A stretch of DNA of 64,000 bases from Candidatus Bathyarchaeota archaeon (GCA_030739585.1 JASLYX010000004.1:1-64000); one strand, 5' to 3'. Positions 50,221 to 61,690 are shown, counted from the first letter of the stretch. Made by a program: numbers and translations. Notes: generated by a model from the letters alone, not told the origin.

Positions 50221-51174
50221 TCACCGAGGAGTAGGCGCCTCGGGGCGGATCAACTGCTCTTCTCTAAGCTCCCCCCACAAATCCGCGGGGATGGGATGAT
50301 CTATCATCCGGAAATTATCCTCCTGATGCTCGGGAGATTTCGTGCCTGGGATGACAGATGCCACAGCAGGATGGGCTAAGACAAACTGGAGGGCAGCAGC
50401 CCTTAGGGGGACACCGTATTTCTCGCAGATCCCCTTCAGCCTAAGCGTTCTATCAACTATCTCTGAAGGGGCAGCCCTGTACTCGTACCTCCCCTCTCCA
50501 GGGTTCGCGAGGACCCCACTGTTGTAGGGGCCCCCGATGATGACGCTAATGTCGTTTTTTTTACAGTAGGGAAGGAACTCAGTGATGGCCCCCTGCTCTA
50601 GCAGGGTATACCTGTTTGCCAGAAGGAAGCAATCGAATTCCCCCTCCTGAGCGAACTTTAGTTCCATCTCCCACTGGTTCATTCCCGCTCCGATAGCCTT
50701 CACAACCCCGTCATCTCGGAGCTCTGCGAGCGCGGGATAGGCATTTTCTATTGCTGGACCGTAATGACTATCCGGGCCATGGATGAAAAGAATGTTTACA
50801 AAGTCTACACCCATACGCTCCAGGCTCCCCTCTAAGGATTCGCGGACACCATCTCGAGTATAGTCATATATCAATTCAACCGAGGAGCCTCCGCCGAACC
50901 GTTTCCTGTTGCATAATGTCCTGCCTATCTTGGTAGAGATGACGATGTGACTCCTGTCAAACTCTGGGAGTACTCTACCCAGCCTCTCCTCGCTGGAGCC
51001 CAGGCCGTAAAGCGGTGCCGTATCGATGTAGTTTATCCCTTGCGCCATTGCAGTCCGGAATGTCTCGGCGGCTTGCTCGACCGTCCTAGATCGGGCGAGC
51101 CCTGAGCATCCCAGCCCAAGTCGGGTAACATGAATGTCAGTCTTCCCAATCCGGGCCTTATCCAGGAAGTTCAT
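50221..51174 (-). CDS. Aldo/keto reductase, fucose/aldose dehydrogenase type (copy 1)
   Basis: This NAD(P)-dependent aldo/keto reductase of 317 residues has catalytic Asp/Tyr in NYIDTAPLYGLGSSE and catalytic Lys in VISTKIGR. The catalytic His lies in NILFIHGPD and the cofactor region in SVIPGTKSPEHQEDNFR. The RIGKTDIHVTRLGLGCSGL start resembles L-fucose/D-threo-aldose 1-dehydrogenases. It overlaps the end of the upstream phosphodiesterase frame by 17 nt and has GAGGA just before ATG, so it is in the same operon. A related copy lies upstream. Confidence 0.9.
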   Translation of the reverse strand: MNFLDKARIGKTDIHVTRLGLGCSGLARSRTVEQAAETFRTAMAQGINYIDTAPLYGLGSSEERLGRVLPEFDRSHIVISTKIGRTLCNRKRFGGGSSVELIYDYTRDGVRESLEGSLERMGVDFVNILFIHGPDSHYGPAIENAYPALAELRDDGVVKAIGAGMNQWEMELKFAQEGEFDCFLLANRYTLLEQGAITEFLPYCKKNDISVIIGGPYNSGVLANPGEGRYEYRAAPSEIVDRTLRLKGICEKYGVPLRAAALQFVLAHPAVASVIPGTKSPEHQEDNFRMIDHPIPADLWGELREEQLIRPEAPTPR

Positions 51175-53109
51175 ACGGGTCCTCGAAGATGTCGTGTAGA
51201 ACCGCCCCGTTATTCTGTTTAGGTGGCCTCAGCCCCAAGACGTGACTTAACGTGGGGGCGATATCGATCTCCCGCATCAGTCCATACCGTTTCCAGTCTC
51301 TCTCGTATCCAGCCTTGATCCCAGGCCCCGTCATGATCATACAGCCCATATTAGTGAAGAGGGGGGTCTCGGTGCTGGGGATCATAGACCCGTGCAGCGC
51401 CCCTCTTCCAGGGCCGATGCTCTGACGGTTCATCACGGGCTCCGCTGAACCCCCCCGCTCATAGACTGCCCCCCAGCCGAATCCACCGTTGTAAGTAAAG
51501 ATCACGTCCCCCTGCTCCTCCCCCAGAAACCGATGATTTGAGAGTCTTTTAACTTCAAAGCGAGAGCTATAGGCCGCTTCCCGGTCATCCTGTCCCTCCA
51601 CTCTAGAAGGGCATCTATGACCGCCTCCTGAATGACCTCATAATCTTCTGAAGGGACAATCCCCATAGGCTCCCGGCCCTCCAGATTCACGAAGATCTCG
51701 GAGCCCCGGGTGGCCAGGGTGTAGACTTTTGAATGCTCGAAGTCGATCGCCCTCCCGTTCTCCTTGAATACCAAGAGACCTTTCTTGGCAAGGAGGACGT
51801 CTACATCGCACCAGCGATGGGCTGGGATCATCCCGTGGTCTGATATCACTATTACATAGGTTTCATCATCCGCCAGTTCGAGGAACTCCTCCAGGGCCTT
51901 ATCCGCAATCTTGTAGGCCCTCTTCTGGGCTTCTATGTTCCAGATCCCGGTCTAGATGTTATAATTAGGGCCCTCCGGGTCTGCAGGGTTAACTGAGTGG
52001 TGGTTGAGGTTATCAAAGAGGTGCCAGTGGCAGAAGTGGAGATCCCATCCATACTTCTCCTGTACATAGGCCGCAGCCTTGGCGATCCAGCACCCTTGGT
52101 AGAGATGCTCTAGGAGGAAGGCGTCAAGTTGAGGATCGTCTATTGGGCTCACTGAGTTCTTCACGAAGAAGGGACCCACCTCCTCTACTAGCTCCTTGCT
52201 CAGCCCCTCAGGATATGTGAAGCCCCGAATGGGATAGATTTGTGAGTGGCAGAACCGGAAGTTCCCGCCCCCAGGAGAGACCTCGAGGAGGTAGAATCTC
52301 ACGCTCCCCTCGCGGGTATTTTCCTCACCGAAGCCGTGAACCATCCAGTCTGTCCATTCGCCCAGCTCCAGCTCTGCAAGGAAGGCACCATTTTCCCCTC
52401 GCTCAGAGATCATGAACTTTTCTAAACCCCCGTCCTCGGAGGCGAGCACCGTGAGCTCTAAGCGGTTGTCAGTCATCCCATCCATGAGTTTGAAGTGTAG
52501 AACGCTGGTCCAGGCCTTGAGAGGCTCATATTGCCTACACTTGGAGGGTTTCAACTCGAGCACCGTGCTTCCGGGGGGCGGCCCCTCCTCAGCTCTGTCC
52601 ACTGTCAAGTCAATACTTTCTTGGATCAGGGGATCCTCCCCAGATACACCGATCCCAGACAGTGAGCAGTAGAACTGGACGGGGTCGGCGACCACAAAAG
52701 GGGGGTCACGGAATCCCGGGGCTACGACATAGCCGGATTCCACTGGAGTAGGCCACGTGGCAACGGGGTAAAAGGTTATCATAGATTTGAGGCCCGCCTC
52801 CTCAGCACCCTCCTAGATGGTCTCAGCCCTCCAGTCAGTTGTCTCCCAAGAAAGGATCCGGGGTGCATCCCAGGGCTGGGTCTTTTGCCTGCGTTCCCAC
52901 CCCGCCAGCCCGTGGACTCCGGGCTCAGCGCCTGTGACCTGGGCTGCCCAGTTGGTGGGAGTCCACGCGGGGATGGAGGGTAGCAGCCTATTGAGAGTCC
53001 CCCTTTCTATCATGCGCTTAAACGTTGGCAGGGCCCCCTCTGCGATGAACCTCTTGAGAAGGGGACGGTTCATCCCATCCAGTCCTATATGTAGTATCTT
53101 CTTGGCCAT
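51158..53109 (-). pseudogene. Type I phosphodiesterase/nucleotide pyrophosphatase gene, broken
   Basis: An alkaline phosphatase-superfamily gene (PF01663 type), about 650 codons long. It begins MAKKILHIGLDGMN after a GAGGAG site and keeps the metal-site segments IGLDGMNRPLL, FDNLNHHSVN, ISDHGMIPAHRW and TGPGIKAGYE. It is interrupted three times. TAG at 52813-52815 falls where relatives have WExAExAG (TGG to TAG). TAG at 51952-51954 lies in the same frame. A one-base frameshift sits in a run of five G near 51520-51526; a sixth G would restore GFWGEEQGDVIF. It is probably a recent pseudogene or carries sequence errors; TAG read-through is the other reading. Confidence 0.8.
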
Positions 53110-53209: not shown

Positions 53210-54160
53210 TTACTGGGGAACCGGAGCATCTGGATGGATCAGTTCCTTCTCCCGGAGTCCCTCCCAAAACTCCCCGGGGATGGGGTGACTCATCATCCGA
53301 AAATTGTCCTCCTGATGCCTGGGTGACTTGGTTCCTGGTATCACCGAGGCCACTGCAGGATGGGCCATCACGAATTGGAGGGCGGCTGCTCTCATCGGAA
53401 CTCCGTGTTTAATGCAAACCTCCTGGAGCCTCGCGACCTTGGCTGAGACCTCGGGGGGGACCTCCTTGTAATTATATCTCCCATCGGGCTTCGCAAGGAC
53501 CCCACTGTTGTAGGGTCCCCCTATGACGACGCTGATATGGTTCTCCTCGCAGTAGGGGAGGAACTCTGTGATAGCCTTCTGCTCCAAGAGGGTATATCTA
53601 CCCGCTAAGAGGAAGCAGTCGAACTCTCCCTCCTGGGCGAATCGGAGCTCCATCTCCCACTGGTTCATCCCAGCTCCGATGGCCTTGATCTTCCCGTCGT
53701 CCCTCATCTCAGCTAGGGCAGGATAGCCCTCACCTATCGCTTGGTCCCAGTGGTTGTCGGCGTCATGAATGTATAGTATGTCCACAGAGTCAACTCCCAG
53801 ACGACCTAGGCTACTCTCCAATGAGTCTACAATGGCCCCACGGGTGTAATTGTGGACTGGCGTATATCCGTGGCTCTTCTCGTAGTTATCTGTGGACCGG
53901 AGGAGTCTCCCCACTTTGGTTGAGATAACGATCTTTTCCCGGTCAAAGTCTTTGAGTGCCTCTCCGAGGCGGGCCTCGCTCCTGCCCTGCCCGTAAAGGG
54001 GGGCGGTGTCGATATAGCGTACCCCCTGTTCCATGGCAGTCCGGAAGGTCTCGATGGCCTCCCTGGTGGTATCAGCCCTTGCTAACCCCGAGCAGCCCAG
54101 CCCCAGAAGAGTAACTTGTAGGTCGGTTTTCCCGATTCTCGTTTTTTCAAGTGGATCCAT
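53210..54160 (-). CDS. Aldo/keto reductase, fucose/aldose dehydrogenase type (copy 2)
   Basis: The 316-residue paralogue of the enzyme at 50221-51174 shares long blocks such as AIGAGMNQWEMEL and EGEFDCFLLA almost unchanged. Catalytic residues are present in RYIDTAPLYGQGRSE, VISTKVGR and DILYIHDAD. The two copies flank the phosphodiesterase gene, so the unit probably arose by tandem duplication. It is likely an aldose 1-dehydrogenase; the two copies differ most near residues 88-105, a loop expected to shape the substrate pocket. Confidence 0.9.
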   Translation of the reverse strand: MDPLEKTRIGKTDLQVTLLGLGCSGLARADTTREAIETFRTAMEQGVRYIDTAPLYGQGRSEARLGEALKDFDREKIVISTKVGRLLRSTDNYEKSHGYTPVHNYTRGAIVDSLESSLGRLGVDSVDILYIHDADNHWDQAIGEGYPALAEMRDDGKIKAIGAGMNQWEMELRFAQEGEFDCFLLAGRYTLLEQKAITEFLPYCEENHISVVIGGPYNSGVLAKPDGRYNYKEVPPEVSAKVARLQEVCIKHGVPMRAAALQFVMAHPAVASVIPGTKSPRHQEDNFRMMSHPIPGEFWEGLREKELIHPDAPVPQ

Positions 54161-54225: not shown

Positions 54226-54510
54226 CTATCCCCCGCTAACAGGGTGTAATATAACTAGGGCGTCGTTGTCGTTTAGTTTTCTCCCTGTCTGCTCGGGGAG
54301 GGCGATGTACTCCTCGTTTAGGAACAGATTAAAGTAGGTGCCGAAGGACTCGATGAGTGTCCTACCGCTTTGGCACTTGAAGGCCTCCCCGTAATCCTTC
54401 TCGAGCCTGGACAGGATGTCCTGAATAGTGACCTCCTCCCCTTGGAACTCCAGGGAAATGTTTCCCTTACCAAATACGCTGTAGTAGTAGATCTTGATGT
54501 CTACGATCAT
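54226..54510 (-). CDS. MoaD/ThiS-type ubiquitin-like sulfur carrier
   Basis: The 94-residue beta-grasp protein ends in HPVSGG, the Gly-Gly tail that is adenylated and thiocarboxylated in MoaD/ThiS proteins. The core shows EVTIQDILSRLEKDYGEAF and LFLNEEYIALPEQ. The frame opens at 54555, but an AGGTGA ribosome site 7 nt before ATG 54510 sets the start. It sits between a DapA-family and an aldo/keto reductase gene. MoaD-like proteins often serve tungsten or molybdenum cofactor enzymes, but none is seen here. Confidence 0.8.
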   Translation of the reverse strand: MIVDIKIYYYSVFGKGNISLEFQGEEVTIQDILSRLEKDYGEAFKCQSGRTLIESFGTYFNLFLNEEYIALPEQTGRKLNDNDALVILHPVSGG

Positions 54511-54559
54511 GTATAGTTCACCTGATTGGAGGGTGTTCTGACTAGTAGGTATCAAACCT

Positions 54560-54582: not shown

Positions 54583-55476
54583 TTATAGCTGAACAGACTG
54601 GATTCTCTTAAAGATCTCCTCAGCTTGCTTCTTGTGCTCATCACTCAGAGGCAAAAGGGGCTTCCTAGATGGCCCCGCCTTCCTTCCGAAGTACTCTAGG
54701 CCGTATTTTGCCCCCTGGGTGAACTTGCCGGAGCCCTCTAAAAAGTTGCCGAGAGGCAGCACTGCGGAGTAGAGGGATTTGGCCTTATCGTAGTCTTTCT
54801 CCCAGTTCGCGTATTCGTACAGCTTGCTCATGTGCTTAGGGAAGATATTCGCTCCGACGCAAATGAAGCCCATGGCGCCCATGAAGAAGGACTCTAAGGC
54901 GAGGTTGTCGGATCCGCAAAAGACGACCATCTTTCCTTTGGTAAGGTCCAGTATCTGGGGTATTCGTGTGATATCCCCACTGCTCTCCTTTACGTACCGG
55001 ACGTTATCCAGCTCAGAGAGCCTCGCTAAGCCCTCTGGGGGGATATCGATCTTGCAGGTCCAGGGGTTGTTATAGACCATTATAGGGATGTTAACGGCCT
55101 CGTTGATCACCCTGAAATGTTGGTAGACCTCCTCCATATCAATTTTCGAATAGTACGGAGGGACTATGAGAGCTCCATCTACCCCCGCCTCCTCGGCGTA
55201 TTTTGTGAGTTCTATGACCCTCAGAGTTGAGCAAGCAGCTGTCCCACTGATTAGGGGGACCCTGCCATCCACGGCCTCAACAGCAGCGTCCATAACGCTC
55301 TTCAGCTCCTCTAAGCTTTGGGCGGCGAACTCCCCTGTGCTCCCGTTAACAGCTATCCCGTGAACGCCATTCTCGATGTAGTAATCGAGGTTATCCTTGA
55401 ACGACTCTAGGTCTAGCTCTTCATCTTTTGTCATGGGGGTGACTGAGACGACAAATGTTCCCTCGAATTTTTTCAT
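54583..55476 (-). CDS. DapA-family aldolase (dihydrodipicolinate synthase/N-acetylneuraminate lyase)
   Basis: This class I aldolase of 297 residues has GSTGE at residues 45-49, Tyr135 in MVYNNP and Schiff-base Lys163 in YVKESSGD. Family members add or remove pyruvate: DapA in lysine synthesis, KDG/KDPG aldolases, NanA and others. The neighbourhood of sugar dehydrogenases and dehydratases favours a 2-keto-3-deoxy sugar-acid aldolase over lysine synthesis; this is inference. It ends at the T10 terminator. Confidence 0.87.
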   Translation of the reverse strand: MKKFEGTFVVSVTPMTKDEELDLESFKDNLDYYIENGVHGIAVNGSTGEFAAQSLEELKSVMDAAVEAVDGRVPLISGTAACSTLRVIELTKYAEEAGVDGALIVPPYYSKIDMEEVYQHFRVINEAVNIPIMVYNNPWTCKIDIPPEGLARLSELDNVRYVKESSGDITRIPQILDLTKGKMVVFCGSDNLALESFFMGAMGFICVGANIFPKHMSKLYEYANWEKDYDKAKSLYSAVLPLGNFLEGSGKFTQGAKYGLEYFGRKAGPSRKPLLPLSDEHKKQAEEIFKRIQSVQL

Positions 55477-55565: not shown

Positions 55566-55994
55566 CTATAGGCCAATAATTTTCATGAGCCTACTGAACC
55601 AGTTATCTCCCTTGTCCCTCTGGTTATTCTCCTTACGCTTCTTCTCGTCCCGTTCCTTCGCTAGGAACTCAATTCTCTCTACAAGACCTTTGACGTTATT
55701 GCTGTTGTTTAGGAATGCAATGTAATCGAAGCCAGGGATGTCAAATGCCTCCAGAAGAGGGGCAAAAGGGAGCAGCGTGAGCTGACTGACTATAGGGCTT
55801 ATAGGGCGCAAAGGGATGAGAAATAGCATCGCGACAGACTCCAACCTGTTGTCAACGATTCTTTTCGCCAAGATATCTAGGATCTCCTCCTCTCTATCCT
55901 CTGAAATATCCAGCGTTGGAACTTGGAACCCAACAGTTTTCTCTGGTTTAACAATGAAATCTTTTGTTTTTTTTTCAGGAGACTCATCGATCAA
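55566..55994 (-). CDS. Unrecognised protein with central hydrophobic segment
   Basis: The 142-residue protein is not a family I can name. It has a charged N-terminus, an acidic helix EDREEEILDILAKRIVD, and a central hydrophobic part LESVAMLFLIPLRPISPIV with LTLLPFAPLLEAF. A helix VKGLVERIEFLAKERDEKK follows, then a basic, Asn-rich tail. It may be peripheral or monotopic at the membrane. It is divergent from the four-gene membrane operon and may share a role with it. TTG start at 55994. Confidence 0.6.
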   Translation of the reverse strand: MIDESPEKKTKDFIVKPEKTVGFQVPTLDISEDREEEILDILAKRIVDNRLESVAMLFLIPLRPISPIVSQLTLLPFAPLLEAFDIPGFDYIAFLNNSNNVKGLVERIEFLAKERDEKKRKENNQRDKGDNWFSRLMKIIGL

Positions 55995-56098
55995 AGCAGA
56001 TCAGGAAAGGACTTACATCTAAAAAAGTGATTCTAATACATTAACTTAATCGCACGCGAACGAAAATTTTCATTATTCCACTTTTTGTGTCATGAAAA

Positions 56099-56107
56099 TC
56101 TTATATG
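56099..56107 (+). promoter_or_regulatory. TATA box of the four-gene membrane operon
   Basis: CTTATATG (56100-56107) predicts transcription from about 56129, with a short leader to the first start codon. Confidence 0.45.
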
Positions 56108-56141
56108 TATAATAAACATATACCGAAGTTAGCAAAAACAT

Positions 56142-56939
56142 GTGATACTTATGATAATAAGAACAGGACGTGAATTCGAAGTTCTGATACTTCTAGTCAT
56201 GATCGTGTACTATGTGTACTGGTTAATGCAATCAACGGGTGGTAAGTCTATTCCTGAGCTCAGAAACTTCCCTGCAATCGATGCCATCGAGGAGGGTGTG
56301 GGCCGAAGTGTAGAGACCGATAAGCCCGTACACTTTGGTCTTGGAGACGCGTCTCGGTTAGGTGGAGACCGGGCAGCTGGAACTATCTCTGCCCTTAACT
56401 TCCTCTCTTACACTGCCACGCTTTGTGCCAGAACAGGGGCGAACCTGATTGTCAGGATCTCCCCAAATCCACACCTTTACGCACAGGCAGACGCTATCGT
56501 TTCAGACGCGTATGCCGCGGAAGGTAAGCAAGACGAGCTGGACAAGGTCTCCACGCTTCGATACTACGGCGACTACAGGGGATATATGACGGGTGGGATC
56601 AGGGACATGGTGTCTCTAGGTACCGCAATGAATGTCACTATGGGCGCCTTATCAGTTGAGACCGTCTGGGCTTATGCAATCTGCAGAGCCCAGGGAGGGA
56701 TCGGGGTAGGCGGAGGCTCCAGGTGGGGCATGATCTTTGGCCTCGCGATGTTAGCGGACTATGCCCTTCTGGGTGACGAGATGTACGCGGCTTCTGCCAA
56801 AGTCTCGAATGACTCTGACATGGCGGCGAGCTTCATCGGTGGTGACTGGATGAAGTTCACTTTGGTCGCACTGACAATAATTACTTCTTTGGCTTACTTT
56901 GTTGGCGCACAAAAGCTGGTAGCTTGGATGTTTATTTAG
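56142..56939 (+). CDS. Membrane operon gene A: TM-domain-TM protein (DUF6754-like)
   Basis: This protein of about 265 residues has one N-terminal membrane helix (VLILLVMIVYYVYWLM), a soluble domain of about 190 residues and a C-terminal helix (TLVALTIITSLAYFVGAQ). The domain shows HFGLGDASRLGGDRAAGT, GANLIVRISPN, YYGDYRGYMTGGIRDMVSLG and FIGGDWM, which I associate with the uncharacterised DUF6754 family. First of four genes with strong ribosome sites and gaps of 13 nt or less. The start is GTG 56142 or ATG 56151. Its layout resembles gene C of the operon, suggesting distant paralogy. Function unknown. Confidence 0.75.
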   Translation: MILMIIRTGREFEVLILLVMIVYYVYWLMQSTGGKSIPELRNFPAIDAIEEGVGRSVETDKPVHFGLGDASRLGGDRAAGTISALNFLSYTATLCARTGANLIVRISPNPHLYAQADAIVSDAYAAEGKQDELDKVSTLRYYGDYRGYMTGGIRDMVSLGTAMNVTMGALSVETVWAYAICRAQGGIGVGGGSRWGMIFGLAMLADYALLGDEMYAASAKVSNDSDMAASFIGGDWMKFTLVALTIITSLAYFVGAQKLVAWMFI

Positions 56940-56952
56940 GGAGTATGATGAA

Positions 56953-57585
56953 ATGTCGTTTGATTATAAACGAAAAGTACCGCAATATATCCTTACGATT
57001 ATAGTTGCGGTTTTTCTCATCGAGTATGCTCTACCTGAAGGTCCATTGACATTCGTTAAAAATGAGCTGACGCTTTGGTTGACCATAATCGCCAGCTTCA
57101 CATTCTTTGTTGCTGCTATCACACTAATAGTAAGATACTCTAGGGAGTTAACAGGAGCCAAGCAAGGGTCAGGTATGATGTATGCCATAGAGTTCTTCGC
57201 GGTATTCGTAATATACATTGGCGTCGCTTTGCTGACGGGTGGAGTCAGTGGGGACAGTTACAAATGGCTAATGAATACTATCTACGGCAACCTCGCTCAG
57301 GCTGTCTGGGTGTTCTATGTATTCTTAGAGCCTTGGGCCGCTTACAAGGCGTTCCAGATGAGATCTAAGGAGTCCATTATACTTGCCGTCACCGGCTTGA
57401 CTTACTTACTAACCCTTGCTCCAAGTATACCCGCTATGGTTCCCTTAATTGGGGATTTCAAACAATGGATAGTGAATGTGCCCGGAAAGGGTGGCATGAG
57501 AGGAGCTATCATCACCATGGGTGTTGGTGCCCTTTTACTTTCTCTAAGAATGCTGACTGGTAAAGAGAAGGGGATCGTGGATTAG
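56953..57585 (+). CDS. Membrane operon gene B: polytopic membrane protein
   Basis: The 210-residue protein has about six membrane segments: YILTIIVAVFLIEYAL, LWLTIIASFTFFVAAITLIV, AIEFFAVFVIYIGVALL, QAVWVFYVFLEPWAAY, AVTGLTYLLTLAPSIPAM and ITMGVGALLLSL. No transporter signature is recognised. GGAG lies before the ATG. It probably forms the membrane part of a complex with genes A, C and D. Confidence 0.75.
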   Translation: MSFDYKRKVPQYILTIIVAVFLIEYALPEGPLTFVKNELTLWLTIIASFTFFVAAITLIVRYSRELTGAKQGSGMMYAIEFFAVFVIYIGVALLTGGVSGDSYKWLMNTIYGNLAQAVWVFYVFLEPWAAYKAFQMRSKESIILAVTGLTYLLTLAPSIPAMVPLIGDFKQWIVNVPGKGGMRGAIITMGVGALLLSLRMLTGKEKGIVD

Positions 57586-57598
57586 GAGGATATGAAAA

Positions 57599-58468
57599 AT
57601 GTCTGATCCAATGAAAATCGATGGCGATACCATGATCGAAAAGCTCGGGGGACTACACTGGTTCTGGGTTGGTGCTGTAATACTGGTCCTAATATTCATA
57701 CCTCTTTTGATACCACTGAATTTACCTATATCCACTACACAGTGGACACACGATGCAGTGGATGCAATACAAGACGTACCATCTAACAAGATTGTTGTCT
57801 GGGAGGATAATTGGGGCATGGGAGCATTGGCTGAAGCTGAAGTAGGGCACGTAGCACTAATGAGAATATTATTGAAAAATAATGTCAAATTTGTGATGGT
57901 TGCTCTAGGCGAGGATACGCCACTACTCCATGCATACATCTCCGACTTGGTCGCAAAATCCCCGGAGGCGGTGGGAAAGACCTATGGCAAAGACTGGGCT
58001 CAAATGGGCTTCCTCCCTGGAGGTGAGGGGGCGCTTTCGCTCATGGCCGAGGACTTCCATGCAACCTTCGGAAAGGACTTTGACGGAACATCTCTGAGTA
58101 GTCTACCTATCATGAACAACCTACATGATTCCAATGACATAGGCCTTGTAATCACAGGTTCCCCATCCCAAACTTGGGTTGAGGCGCCAGTAAGACAATG
58201 GTATACCAAATACAACATCCCACTCGTCTCATACACGCTAACTGGTGGAACAGTACTCTCGGGTACATACTATCCGAATAACGGTATCCTCGGTATAATC
58301 GAGGGGAGCACCGGTGGCGCTGAGCTTGAGTACATCGGCAAAGTACCCGGCAATGGTGCACGTATATCCGATGCAAAGACTCTGGCATATCTGGCAACCG
58401 CTGCCTTCATCGTGATAGGCAATATTTCTTACTTTGGTTCGAAGAAAAATAAAGGAGGCACAAGCTAA
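57599..58468 (+). CDS. Membrane operon gene C: TM-domain-TM protein
   Basis: The 289-residue protein has an N-terminal helix (WFWVGAVILVLIFIPLLIPL), a soluble domain of about 200 residues and a C-terminal helix (LAYLATAAFIVIGNISYF). The domain alternates beta strands and helices (NKIVVWEDNWGMGALAEAE, VKFVMVALGEDTP, IGLVITGSPSQTWVE, IPLVSYTLTGGTVLSG). It looks Rossmann-like and similar in layout to gene A. The ribosome site is GGAGG. It could be an extracytoplasmic or cytoplasmic binding domain; the side of the membrane is not known. Confidence 0.75.
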   Translation: MSDPMKIDGDTMIEKLGGLHWFWVGAVILVLIFIPLLIPLNLPISTTQWTHDAVDAIQDVPSNKIVVWEDNWGMGALAEAEVGHVALMRILLKNNVKFVMVALGEDTPLLHAYISDLVAKSPEAVGKTYGKDWAQMGFLPGGEGALSLMAEDFHATFGKDFDGTSLSSLPIMNNLHDSNDIGLVITGSPSQTWVEAPVRQWYTKYNIPLVSYTLTGGTVLSGTYYPNNGILGIIEGSTGGAELEYIGKVPGNGARISDAKTLAYLATAAFIVIGNISYFGSKKNKGGTS

Positions 58469-59089
58469 ATGGCAGATGCATTGACAGCATGGATCGCTGT
58501 GACCCTATGGCTCATGGTGGCTTCATGGACCTACAAAGACAACCCACTCTTCAAAATAGCGACCGTTGCATCGGTAGCTGGTGGCGCTGCGAACGGCGTA
58601 CTCGTCAACATCAACAACGTGATGCAAAAGGCAATCGTCCCCATCCTTGATGGGTCAAAGATTTTACTCATCATACCAATACTCATCGGAATAATGTTCG
58701 TGGGTGTGTTTGACCAGCGTTACAAGTGGTTAGCGCGCATCCCGACAGTTACTATGATGGGTATCTCTATGGGAGCGATGTTGACGGGAGTCATGAGCGC
58801 TCAGATTATCGGCCAGATTTCAGCTACAGCATCCAGTTTAGTTTCTGGGTCTAGCTTGGTTGGAACGATAAATGCGCTAATAGTCTTGGTCGCAACAGTA
58901 ACTGCAATACTTTACTTCACTTATAGTAAAGAACAAACTGGGATCTATGGAAACCTCACAACGCTAGGGAGATACTTTCTTCTGGCCTCGCTAGGCCCCT
59001 ACTGGGCTGGTGAGCTTGGTTTCCATATGGCTTTCGGTATAAAGTTCGTGCAAATTATCCTGGACGCCCTGGCGACAATCGGGTTTTAA
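58469..59089 (+). CDS. Membrane operon gene D: polytopic membrane protein
   Basis: The 206-residue protein begins directly after the stop of gene C (TAA-ATG). It has about six membrane segments, e.g. AWIAVTLWLMVASW, KILLIIPILIGIMFVGVF, VTMMGISMGAMLTGVM, INALIVLVATVTAILYF and YFLLASLGPYWAGELGF. Its size and helix count match gene B, so B and D may be a paralogous pair as A and C may be. The ribosome site AGGAGG lies in the end of gene C. Confidence 0.75.
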   Translation: MADALTAWIAVTLWLMVASWTYKDNPLFKIATVASVAGGAANGVLVNINNVMQKAIVPILDGSKILLIIPILIGIMFVGVFDQRYKWLARIPTVTMMGISMGAMLTGVMSAQIIGQISATASSLVSGSSLVGTINALIVLVATVTAILYFTYSKEQTGIYGNLTTLGRYFLLASLGPYWAGELGFHMAFGIKFVQIILDALATIGF

Positions 59090-59099
59090 ACACAAATCC

Positions 59100-59127
59100 T
59101 TTCCTTTTTATTTTATTTTTTTAATTC
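59100..59127 (+). terminator. T-rich terminator of the membrane operon
   Basis: A pyrimidine tract including CTTTTTATTTTATTTTTTT begins about 10 nt after the stop of gene D. Confidence 0.5.
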
Positions 59128-59219: not shown

Positions 59220-60464
59220 TTGATCAGTACTTTGGAGATAACAAAAGTTGAGACCATCCCCGTAAGCATTCCCGTGGGATTCTTCAAGGATGGTATGTGC
59301 AAAGTCAGGGGAGTCAACGCCCCCGATAAATATTACACAGGAAAAACACTCTCGGGGAGCCGCAGAACGGCGCCCAACGACGCCCTCCTCCTCGATAATA
59401 TTATAGTCAAGATCCACACAGATGAAGATATTACAGGCATAGGTGCAGCGGCTCCAGACGTGGGATTTTTTGGGGAGCCCTGGGAGTCTGTAAAGATCAT
59501 CATAGACAACTACATGGGGCCCCGTATCATTGGAATGGATCCCTTTGACAGAGAGCAGATCCTCCATATAGTCACCAGGACAGGAGGATGGCACAACGTT
59601 CTGGCCACCTCTGGGATTGATCTCGCTTTACATGATCTTCTAGGGAAGGCGATGAACACATCTGTCTGCAATCTCCTAGGGGGCTGTCACCAAGACAAAA
59701 TACTTCTCTCTACGGAGGTGCCGCGGGGTGTCCCCGAAAAGATGGCTGAACACAGCCTGGAGTATTACGAGCAAGGGGTCCGAGGCTTCAAGGCTAAGGT
59801 TGGGTCTGACCCCCTCCGGGATGCCCTCTCCCTAAAGGCTATGCGGGATGCTATGGGAGACAAGATAAGCATCAGGGCGGATGCCAACCAAGCCTACACC
59901 CCCAAGGAGGCCATCAAGATGTGCAAGCTAACCCAGAAATTCGACGTGGATTTGGAGCTCCTTGAACAGCCTACCAAGAAATGGGACCTAGACGGGATGG
60001 CTAGGATAACCAAGACTGTGGACATCCCCATCGAGGCCGACGAGAGCGCCTTCAGCCTCTTTGATGTTATGAGGATCATCAAGAAGGGAGCTGCAGACGT
60101 AATCAACGCCAAGATCGCTAAGGCAGGGGGATTCTATGGGGTCAAGAAATGGGCTGCCGTAGCTGAGTCAGCTGGCCTCGCAACAGTCATCGGGACAGAG
60201 TGGGGGGTGGGTTCCCAGATCGCCGCGAAGTTGCATCTAGGAGGATCTACAAAGACCATCCACCCCGTTATAGAGTTCACGGAGATAATGATCCACGAAA
60301 CACTGCTTTCCGAACGCCTGAAGCTCAAGGACGGTTATCTTGACGTTCCCACAGGCCCAGGGTTGGGACTCGAGTTGGACCCAAAGAAGGTCGAGAAATA
60401 TATGAACCGTGATCCCTTGGCGAGCGCTCTCGCCTCAGCTTCGCGGGAGTCCATATATGGATGA
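59220..60464 (+). CDS. Enolase-superfamily enzyme, MLE-subgroup active site (copy 1)
   Basis: The 414-residue enzyme has an N-terminal capping domain and a TIM barrel. It shows KxK at Lys191/Lys193 (FKAKVGS), metal ligands Asp221 (RADANQ), Glu249 (LLEQP) and Asp274 (EADES), and Lys301 in AKAGG. A lysine on both faces (KxK and KxGG) is the muconate-lactonizing/epimerase pattern, not the Lys/His pattern of mandelate racemase or many sugar-acid dehydratases. Racemase, epimerase or cycloisomerase chemistry is therefore more likely. TTG start about 26 nt after a TATA-like TTTTATC, so possibly leaderless. A paralogue follows. Confidence 0.88.
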   Translation: MISTLEITKVETIPVSIPVGFFKDGMCKVRGVNAPDKYYTGKTLSGSRRTAPNDALLLDNIIVKIHTDEDITGIGAAAPDVGFFGEPWESVKIIIDNYMGPRIIGMDPFDREQILHIVTRTGGWHNVLATSGIDLALHDLLGKAMNTSVCNLLGGCHQDKILLSTEVPRGVPEKMAEHSLEYYEQGVRGFKAKVGSDPLRDALSLKAMRDAMGDKISIRADANQAYTPKEAIKMCKLTQKFDVDLELLEQPTKKWDLDGMARITKTVDIPIEADESAFSLFDVMRIIKKGAADVINAKIAKAGGFYGVKKWAAVAESAGLATVIGTEWGVGSQIAAKLHLGGSTKTIHPVIEFTEIMIHETLLSERLKLKDGYLDVPTGPGLGLELDPKKVEKYMNRDPLASALASASRESIYG

Positions 60465-60505
60465 ACTTGAATTAGTTGAATATACAAATCAGGAAGGAGA
60501 AATCT

Positions 60506-61690
60506 ATGAAGATAACAGAAATTGAGACCATCCCCGTGAGAATGCCCGTTGGCTTCTATAGGGATGGGGAAGACAAGACAGGGGGAAAAAATAGGCCAAA
60601 AAAGTTCTACACCGGGGATCCTTTGGTAAGAAACCCACTTAGAAATACTGACGGCCATAAGCTATTGGATTACGTAATAGTAAAGATCCACACAGATGAG
60701 GGTATTACCGGGGTTGGGGAGGCACCTACGGACGGTAAAGAGCCCCTCGAGGCGGTTAAGTTTATCATCGACAAAATGTTTGTCCCCCACCTCATAGGGC
60801 TGGATCCCTTTAATCTGGAGCGAACCATAGACACCATCAGAGGGAGAAAATCAAGGGGAGCTAACAGGGGCTCCGTATCGGCCATTGACCTCGCCCTCTA
60901 CGACCTTGTTGGCAAATCGCTAAACTGCAACGTTTCCACCCTCCTAGGTGGACTCTACCGGAACAAGGTCCTTGCCTCCATCGAAGTCCCTCGAAATACC
61001 CCCGAGAAGATGGCTGAGCACAGCCTGGAGTATTATGAACAGGGGATAAGGGGTATCAAGGCCAAGGTCGGCTCGGACTATGAAAACGACGCCAAGTGCC
61101 TCAGAGCTATCAGGGATGCCCTAGGCGATGACATCAGCCTTAGGGCCGATGTAAATGGAGCCTACACAGTACAGCAGGCCATCAGGTTTTGCGACCTCGC
61201 CAACAAGTACGACGTAGGCCTAGAACTCATTGAGCAACCTACCCCCACATGGGACCTGGATGGCATGGCCAGAGTCGTGAAGGCGGTGGATATTCCCGTT
61301 GAGGCCGACGAGAGCGCTTACAGCCTCTACCAGGTCTTCAAGATCCTGAAGCATGAAGCAGCGGATCTCATTAACCCCAAGTGTTCCAAAGCCGGGGGGA
61401 TCTTAGGAGTAAAAAAGTGGGCTTCGGTGACCGAGTCTGCGGGTAAGGAGATTGTAGTCGGCACCGAGTACGGTCTGGGGCTGAGGGTGGCAGCGAAGGT
61501 GATCCTCGGGTGCGCACTAAAGAACGCCCAGCCCATAGTGGAGTTCACCGAGATTATGCTCCACGACCTCCTCATCAAGAAACCTCTGGTACTCAAAGAC
61601 GGCTGGATCGACGTCCCCACGGGGCCAGGTATAGGCTGGGAGCTCGACGACGAGAAGATAGAAAAATACATCCCCGCTGTTTTTCCCTAG
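60506..61690 (+). CDS. Enolase-superfamily enzyme, MLE-subgroup active site (copy 2)
   Basis: The 394-residue paralogue of the preceding gene has the same catalytic set: KAK in IKAKVGS, Asp in RADVNGAY, Glu in LIEQP, EADES, and Lys in SKAGG. The start is ATG 60506, because AGGAAGGAG lies 7 nt upstream; the frame itself opens ten codons earlier. The 42-nt gap to copy 1 suggests one transcript. Blocks such as PEKMAEHSLEYYEQG are nearly identical in the two copies, indicating recent duplication. The substrate-specificity (20s) loop near residues 15-50 differs. Confidence 0.88.
   Translation: MKITEIETIPVRMPVGFYRDGEDKTGGKNRPKKFYTGDPLVRNPLRNTDGHKLLDYVIVKIHTDEGITGVGEAPTDGKEPLEAVKFIIDKMFVPHLIGLDPFNLERTIDTIRGRKSRGANRGSVSAIDLALYDLVGKSLNCNVSTLLGGLYRNKVLASIEVPRNTPEKMAEHSLEYYEQGIRGIKAKVGSDYENDAKCLRAIRDALGDDISLRADVNGAYTVQQAIRFCDLANKYDVGLELIEQPTPTWDLDGMARVVKAVDIPVEADESAYSLYQVFKILKHEAADLINPKCSKAGGILGVKKWASVTESAGKEIVVGTEYGLGLRVAAKVILGCALKNAQPIVEFTEIMLHDLLIKKPLVLKDGWIDVPTGPGIGWELDDEKIEKYIPAVFP

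Follow-up and report, generated by a model that had tools for sequence, protein, structure and literature searches.

A conserved A-B-C-D membrane operon of archaea and bacteria with partner genes E, M and X: a candidate solute importer

Genes A, B, C and D of a Bathyarchaeota genome very probably encode a real membrane complex, which is kept in two domains of life, reaches about 14 copies in a single genome and is accompanied by three partner genes, E, M and X. For its function, a solute importer that M would energise or gate by way of X is given a rough probability of 0.45. No described system with the same parts as ABCD-E-M-X was found in a search of journal papers available without subscription. 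The databases used provided a family name for gene A only, and M is the only partner from a known superfamily.

The operon is located in a stretch of 64,000 nucleotides (GCA_030739585.1, JASLYX010000004.1:1-64000; the window) from a genome of 1.69 Mb in 28 contigs, which is 95% complete and contains one A gene. The closest named relatives are Bathyarchaeota MAGs. The features of the locus were assigned as follows, with the basis in parentheses.

53210-54160, minus strand: aldo/keto reductase, same divergent row as E (ORF, Pfam)
54226-54555, minus strand: ThiS/MoaD-family protein, in the sugar-acid gene row
54583-55476, minus strand: DapA/KDG-aldolase-type enzyme, next gene after E, same strand (ORF, NCBIfam)
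55566-55994, minus strand: gene E, divergent, small protein (ORF, homologues, alignment, linkage)
55995-56141, no strand: putative divergent promoter region common to E and ABCD (sequence)
about 56101-56110: TATA-like stretch, ~35-40 bp upstream of the gene A start (sequence)
56142-56939, plus strand: gene A, DUF6754 (PF20539) (ORF, Pfam, AlphaFold)
56953-57585, plus strand: gene B, polytopic, about 6 TM, 210 aa, apparently N-in (ORF, family alignment, TM/charge profile)
57599-58468, plus strand: gene C, extracellular alpha/beta domain between two TM helices, 289 aa (ORF, alignment, AlphaFold)
58469-59089, plus strand: gene D, polytopic, about 6 TM, 206 aa, apparently N-out (ORF, alignment, TM/charge profile)
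59098-59123, plus strand: T-rich stretch 3' of D, probable archaeal terminator (sequence)
59220-61690, plus strand: two dehydratase-like genes of the enolase superfamily (MR_MLE), following D (ORF, Pfam, NCBIfam)

The gaps between A and B, B and C, and C and D in the window are 13, 13 and 0 bp. Ribosome sites were recognised before B (GGAG) and, of the AGGAGG type, before C and D. Gene A has no ribosome site and may be leaderless, the position of the TATA-like stretch ~35-40 bp 5' of its start being that seen in leaderless archaeal genes; ATG 56151 is its more likely start. The resulting protein of 262-265 aa consists of a TM helix, a cytoplasmic alpha/beta domain and a second TM helix, as judged from the charge profile and the AlphaFold model. 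Family-averaged hydropathy gave two TM helices for A, six for B, two for C and six for D, with a seventh in D of many relatives.

The conservation of the operon was assessed in 40 neighbourhoods from the class of the source organism and 80 named loci from genome contigs, in which ORFs were called and homologues were labelled using profile HMMs. B, C and D were found directly after A, on the same strand and in the same order, at 95 of 114 distinct A loci with at least 2.4 kb downstream, and the median gaps in the conserved sets were about 11, 3.5 and -1 bp. Most of the remaining 19 loci lack one label, which may reflect missed detection or a broken assembly. In 84 sets, pairwise protein distances were compared between the four subunits and correlate with r between 0.81 and 0.90, at identities to the window copy of mostly 20-33%. 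Among archaea, the loci occur in Bathyarchaeota, Culexarchaeum and Methanomethylicota; the bacterial groups, six or more in number, include Fermentithermobacillaceae, Symbiobacterium, WOR-3, Zixibacteria, Eisenbacteria and Armatimonadetes, and further taxa are represented. Since the order is kept in distant genomes and the four subunits have diverged together, these data support the four-gene operon and heteromeric membrane complex proposed in the initial annotation, which had also raised the question of whether the four genes stay together across genomes. That unrelated membrane genes are adjacent merely by chance is scarcely credible for genes which overlap or nearly do so and whose order is maintained at this frequency in two domains.

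Gene A, described earlier as resembling the uncharacterised DUF6754, is a member of this family: it scored 86.9 bits where the cut-off is 27 (E 1.5e-24) and covered positions 11-251 of the 257 in the profile. The family description assigns no function and does not include the other genes of the set, B to E, M and X, and DUF6754 was named in no paper found among the journal papers available without subscription. For B, C and D, neither Pfam nor NCBIfam yielded a family above cut-off, and scanning every aligned member did not change this; the Pfam scans took in 42 B and 36 D members and, as sequence comparisons, revealed no S-component or EcfT family. B and D match no known transporter family, in line with the remark that no transporter signature was recognised; a single B member matches TctC with E 0.043 only. 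A PDB sequence search with the A and C profiles returned nothing below E 0.3, and a Foldseek search of the two models against the PDB nothing below E 0.001. The top Foldseek matches were SIS-type and eIF2B/isomerase-type folds, all of them low in TM-score; both lists included GmhA, eIF2B and trehalose-phosphate synthase. A search of plasmids yielded no C homologue.

The AlphaFold models of A and C (pLDDT 93.6 and 92.7) are alike, each leading from a TM helix through a helix-strand arrangement of six strands and a final helix to the second TM helix, with similar spacing. Comparison of A with C using hhalign gave P values of 1e-4 to 1e-3, and of 1.4e-4 with larger alignments, for which every other pair and the reversed controls remained at P >= 0.015. 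A and C are therefore probably paralogues, on profile and model evidence. For B and D the same comparison gave P 0.3 (42/36 sequences) and 0.03 (122/107 sequences), and reversed profiles scored equally well. Of the two paralogous pairs that had been suggested, with profile-profile comparison as the proposed check, A/C is thus retained and B/D was dropped. The tails of B and D are similar by eye (LLGxERGxLG and FTxEHxGxLG), a likeness without statistical support that would pair helices 2-6 of B with helices 1-5 of D.

The distribution of Lys and Arg around the first TM helix places the domain of A inside and that of C outside: per 20 residues, A has 4.2 after TM1 against 0.8 before it, and C has 3.3 before TM1, 1.7 after TM1 and 3.0 at the C-terminus. 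B appears to be N-in and D N-out by the charge profile. Several Zixibacterial A proteins (L192:8229-17193) carry long N-terminal extensions, some of which start with a hydrophobic, signal-peptide-like stretch by eye. These extensions agree with an A N-terminus outside, and some Zixibacterial A subunits may possess an extra periplasmic part.

The divergent gene at 55566-55994, which had been considered a possible member of the set, is gene E. The encoded protein is small and has a hydrophobic stretch as well as conserved N/E residues. For 37 A genes an E homologue was found no farther than 5 kb away, the side of ABCD and the orientation being variable, which supports E as a conserved partner of ABCD and of M and X. 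The last two were found by clustering of neighbour proteins, each recurring in 26-27 loci, and their identities across phyla are about 50-60%. X (about 380 aa; mean column identity 59%) gave no family above threshold and weak barrel-sandwich matches only (Biotin_lipoyl; RnfC_N, E about 1e-3). A lipoate ligase gene was seen by eye near some Eisenbacterial copies, but lipoylation of X was rejected, the lipoyl-lysine motif not being seen in X. M, X, E and ABCD are co-located in many orders, including a row E-M-X-ABCD-ABCD in Eisenbacteria and related MAGs. In the genome of the window, M (MutL domain at 109667-111088) adjoins X (111498-112616) on contig C5, apart from ABCD. Among 257 genomes of the class, 46 contain the A family, with as many as nine listed matches per genome; 42 contain both A and X, four A only and five X only, many of the exceptions being incomplete assemblies (Fisher 7e-38, relatedness ignored). 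18 of the shared genomes are outside the family of the source organism. A and M are found together in 40 of the 257, and both A and X in all six chromosome-level genomes reached through the loci.

M (about 616 aa) contains a whole PF13941 MutL domain (391-430 bits against a cut-off of 27; 387 bits for the copy of this genome) with the conserved ASKHA motifs DxGSTTTK and GGATT. It is in this respect similar to GlmL/MutL, and the named members of this superfamily are accessory proteins. M could accordingly be a chaperone or reactivase, like the GlmL relatives beside B12 mutases, and ABCD a transporter with an ion gradient as its driving force; M-X pairs located apart from ABCD, as in this genome, and the few class genomes in which X and M but no A could be detected would suit this arrangement. 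M is, however, longer by about 130 C-terminal residues, is far under the cut-off of the GlmL equivalog NCBIfam NF040745 (224 and 214 bits against 475) and occurs with X, E and ABCD. These are its recurrent neighbours; glutamate mutase (GlmS/GlmE) and other B12 mutase genes are not, within the top 25 families of the Pfam tally. We consider a separate chaperone unlikely on these grounds. No paper linking GlmL or glutamate mutase with Bathyarchaeota was found among the journal papers available without subscription.

The sub-threshold RnfC_N match of X, together with two ~200-aa six-TM subunits, B and D, that equal RnfA and RnfE in size and helix number, also recalls a membrane-bound redox or ion-pumping complex of the Rnf/Nqr kind with a barrel-sandwich-type partner, and aldehyde ferredoxin oxidoreductase (AOR) genes are near some copies. 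In contrast to Rnf/Nqr, no sequence match was obtained: PF02508 and the other Rnf/Nqr families gave no family-wide match in scans of B-D, and the flavin-domain family none in scans of A-D. The conserved Cys/His sets of iron-sulfur, haem or cobalamin sites were not found in A-E or X, and a redox or B12 complex was ruled against for want of conserved ligand residues; an Rnf/Nqr-like pump is thus very improbable.

The number of ABCD sets varies widely. About 14 A matches and about 5-6 of X are present in the complete chromosome of Fermentithermobacillus carboniphilus, and three Zixibacteria chromosomes contain five A and one X each. ABCD sets are mostly single and scattered in Bathyarchaeia and Bacillota; tandem arrays comprise two sets in Eisenbacteria and three in Zixibacteria, where on one chromosome the three sets (D of the second unlabelled) are beside divergent M and X. 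Such arrays beside M and X could belong to a single assembly that combines several paralogous sets and has a structural, envelope or export role. The Zixibacterial arrays and their housekeeping neighbours (metK, ahcY) fit a larger assembly equally well, and the signal-peptide-like extensions of some Zixibacterial A proteins point in the same direction. Against this stand the predominance of single sets in Bathyarchaeia and Bacillota, the one set of the present genome and the neighbour tallies, in which no secretin, pilin or secretion ATPase was found among the top 25 families; we regard a machine of this type as improbable. ExbB/TolQ- and ExbD/TolR-like genes were noticed by eye just beyond X on the Zixibacteria chromosome (L192:2447-3597).

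The surroundings of ABCD in the window look like sugar-acid catabolism by their gene content: besides the aldolase-type, reductase and dehydratase-like genes listed above, a UxuA-type and an RraA-type gene are found farther along. Two minus-strand ORFs without a Pfam match, 51158-51601 and 51952-52782, read like pieces of a sulfatase/phosphodiesterase-type gene and are possibly one broken gene. Other ABCD copies are near amidohydrolases, dipeptidases, gamma-glutamyltranspeptidase, other peptidases and AOR genes. A catabolic enrichment is suggestive but statistically unsupported (amidohydrolase hits in 5 and 5 of 112 near genes versus 2 and 2 of 84 far genes). ABC ATPases are not conserved neighbours, ABC_tran being present in only 2 of the 112 near genes. 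The idea that ABCD replaces peptide ABC importers was also rejected, the SBP_bac_5 count showing no anticorrelation with ABCD copies (rho 0.02). Two AOR genes are located beside the M-X pair of this genome (L163). ThiS/MoaD-family proteins are frequent companions of AOR-type tungsten enzymes.

Since no subunit has the sequence of a known transporter and neither A nor C matches a PDB fold below E 0.001, the assignment to transport is drawn from topology, copy number and gene context. In the proposed importer A-B-C-D would be the membrane part of a system that E, M and X complete. B and D would form the membrane path for the solute, which would be bound outside by C; A, the inward-facing paralogue of C, would control release and dock the cytoplasmic parts. 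ATP hydrolysis by M, which has the ASKHA fold and conserved nucleotide motifs, would drive or gate the cycle, X, as a barrel-sandwich-type protein, would couple M to the membrane subunits and E, small and attached to the membrane, would act as an adaptor. Each of the divergent ABCD sets would take a different substrate, with a few conserved M-X pairs in common, much as ECF transporters with one energy module; the divergence of ABCD against the conservation of M and X suggests variable substrates and a common cytoplasmic part. As the single ABCD set of this genome is among sugar-acid catabolic genes, its cargo would probably be an aldonate, uronate or related sugar acid.

The likeness to group II ECF transporters concerns the way of working only: many divergent membrane modules with subunits of about six TM helices, and fewer, putatively shared ATPase modules coded elsewhere. 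The five A to one X of the Zixibacteria chromosomes repeat this copy-number pattern as counts, not as physical sharing. Unlike ECF transporters, ABCD has no conserved ABC ATPase gene and, by Pfam scans of B and D, no EcfT family, its candidate ATPase is of the ASKHA fold and it has paralogous soluble domains on both faces. With TRAP/TTT transporters it shares an extracytoplasmic domain, two polytopic subunits, catabolic neighbours and about 16 TM helices in total, but A-D lack the DctP/TctC, DctM/TctA and DctQ/TctB families, C is anchored by two helices and M, X and E are additional partners.

If ABCD is a transporter, it would represent a new family. A transporter driven by an actin/Hsp70-type ATPase is not known to us, so one powered by M would be unprecedented. 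The wider proposal of a new class of primary transporter, in which substrate-specific ABCD modules with A/C paralogous domains on opposite faces are powered by ASKHA-fold M via X, with several modules of a cell sharing these parts across archaea and bacteria, is considered less probable than the importer reading. A transport function would also offer a clue to the nutrition of Bathyarchaeia and of several uncultured bacterial phyla, and the neighbours would point to a candidate substrate for each copy.

A divergent pair, M'-X', was observed in about a dozen Bathyarchaeia genomes beside an HTH regulator and mostly without adjacent ABCD (L179:9179-11861, L180:7894-10579, L181:8074-9806 and others). 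In both copies that were inspected, DIDNNRTK or NIDNLLTK stands in M' in place of DVGSTTTK, a loss of the ASKHA phosphate-1 motif, and X' is without the C-terminal ~75 residues of X; the pair may be a regulatory derivative of M-X. A DUF483-containing protein is encoded beside E/X at eight loci, mainly archaeal (L053:5738-6676, L193:12684-13631), and a similar protein adjoins M-X in Fermentithermobacillus; it is possibly an additional accessory gene.
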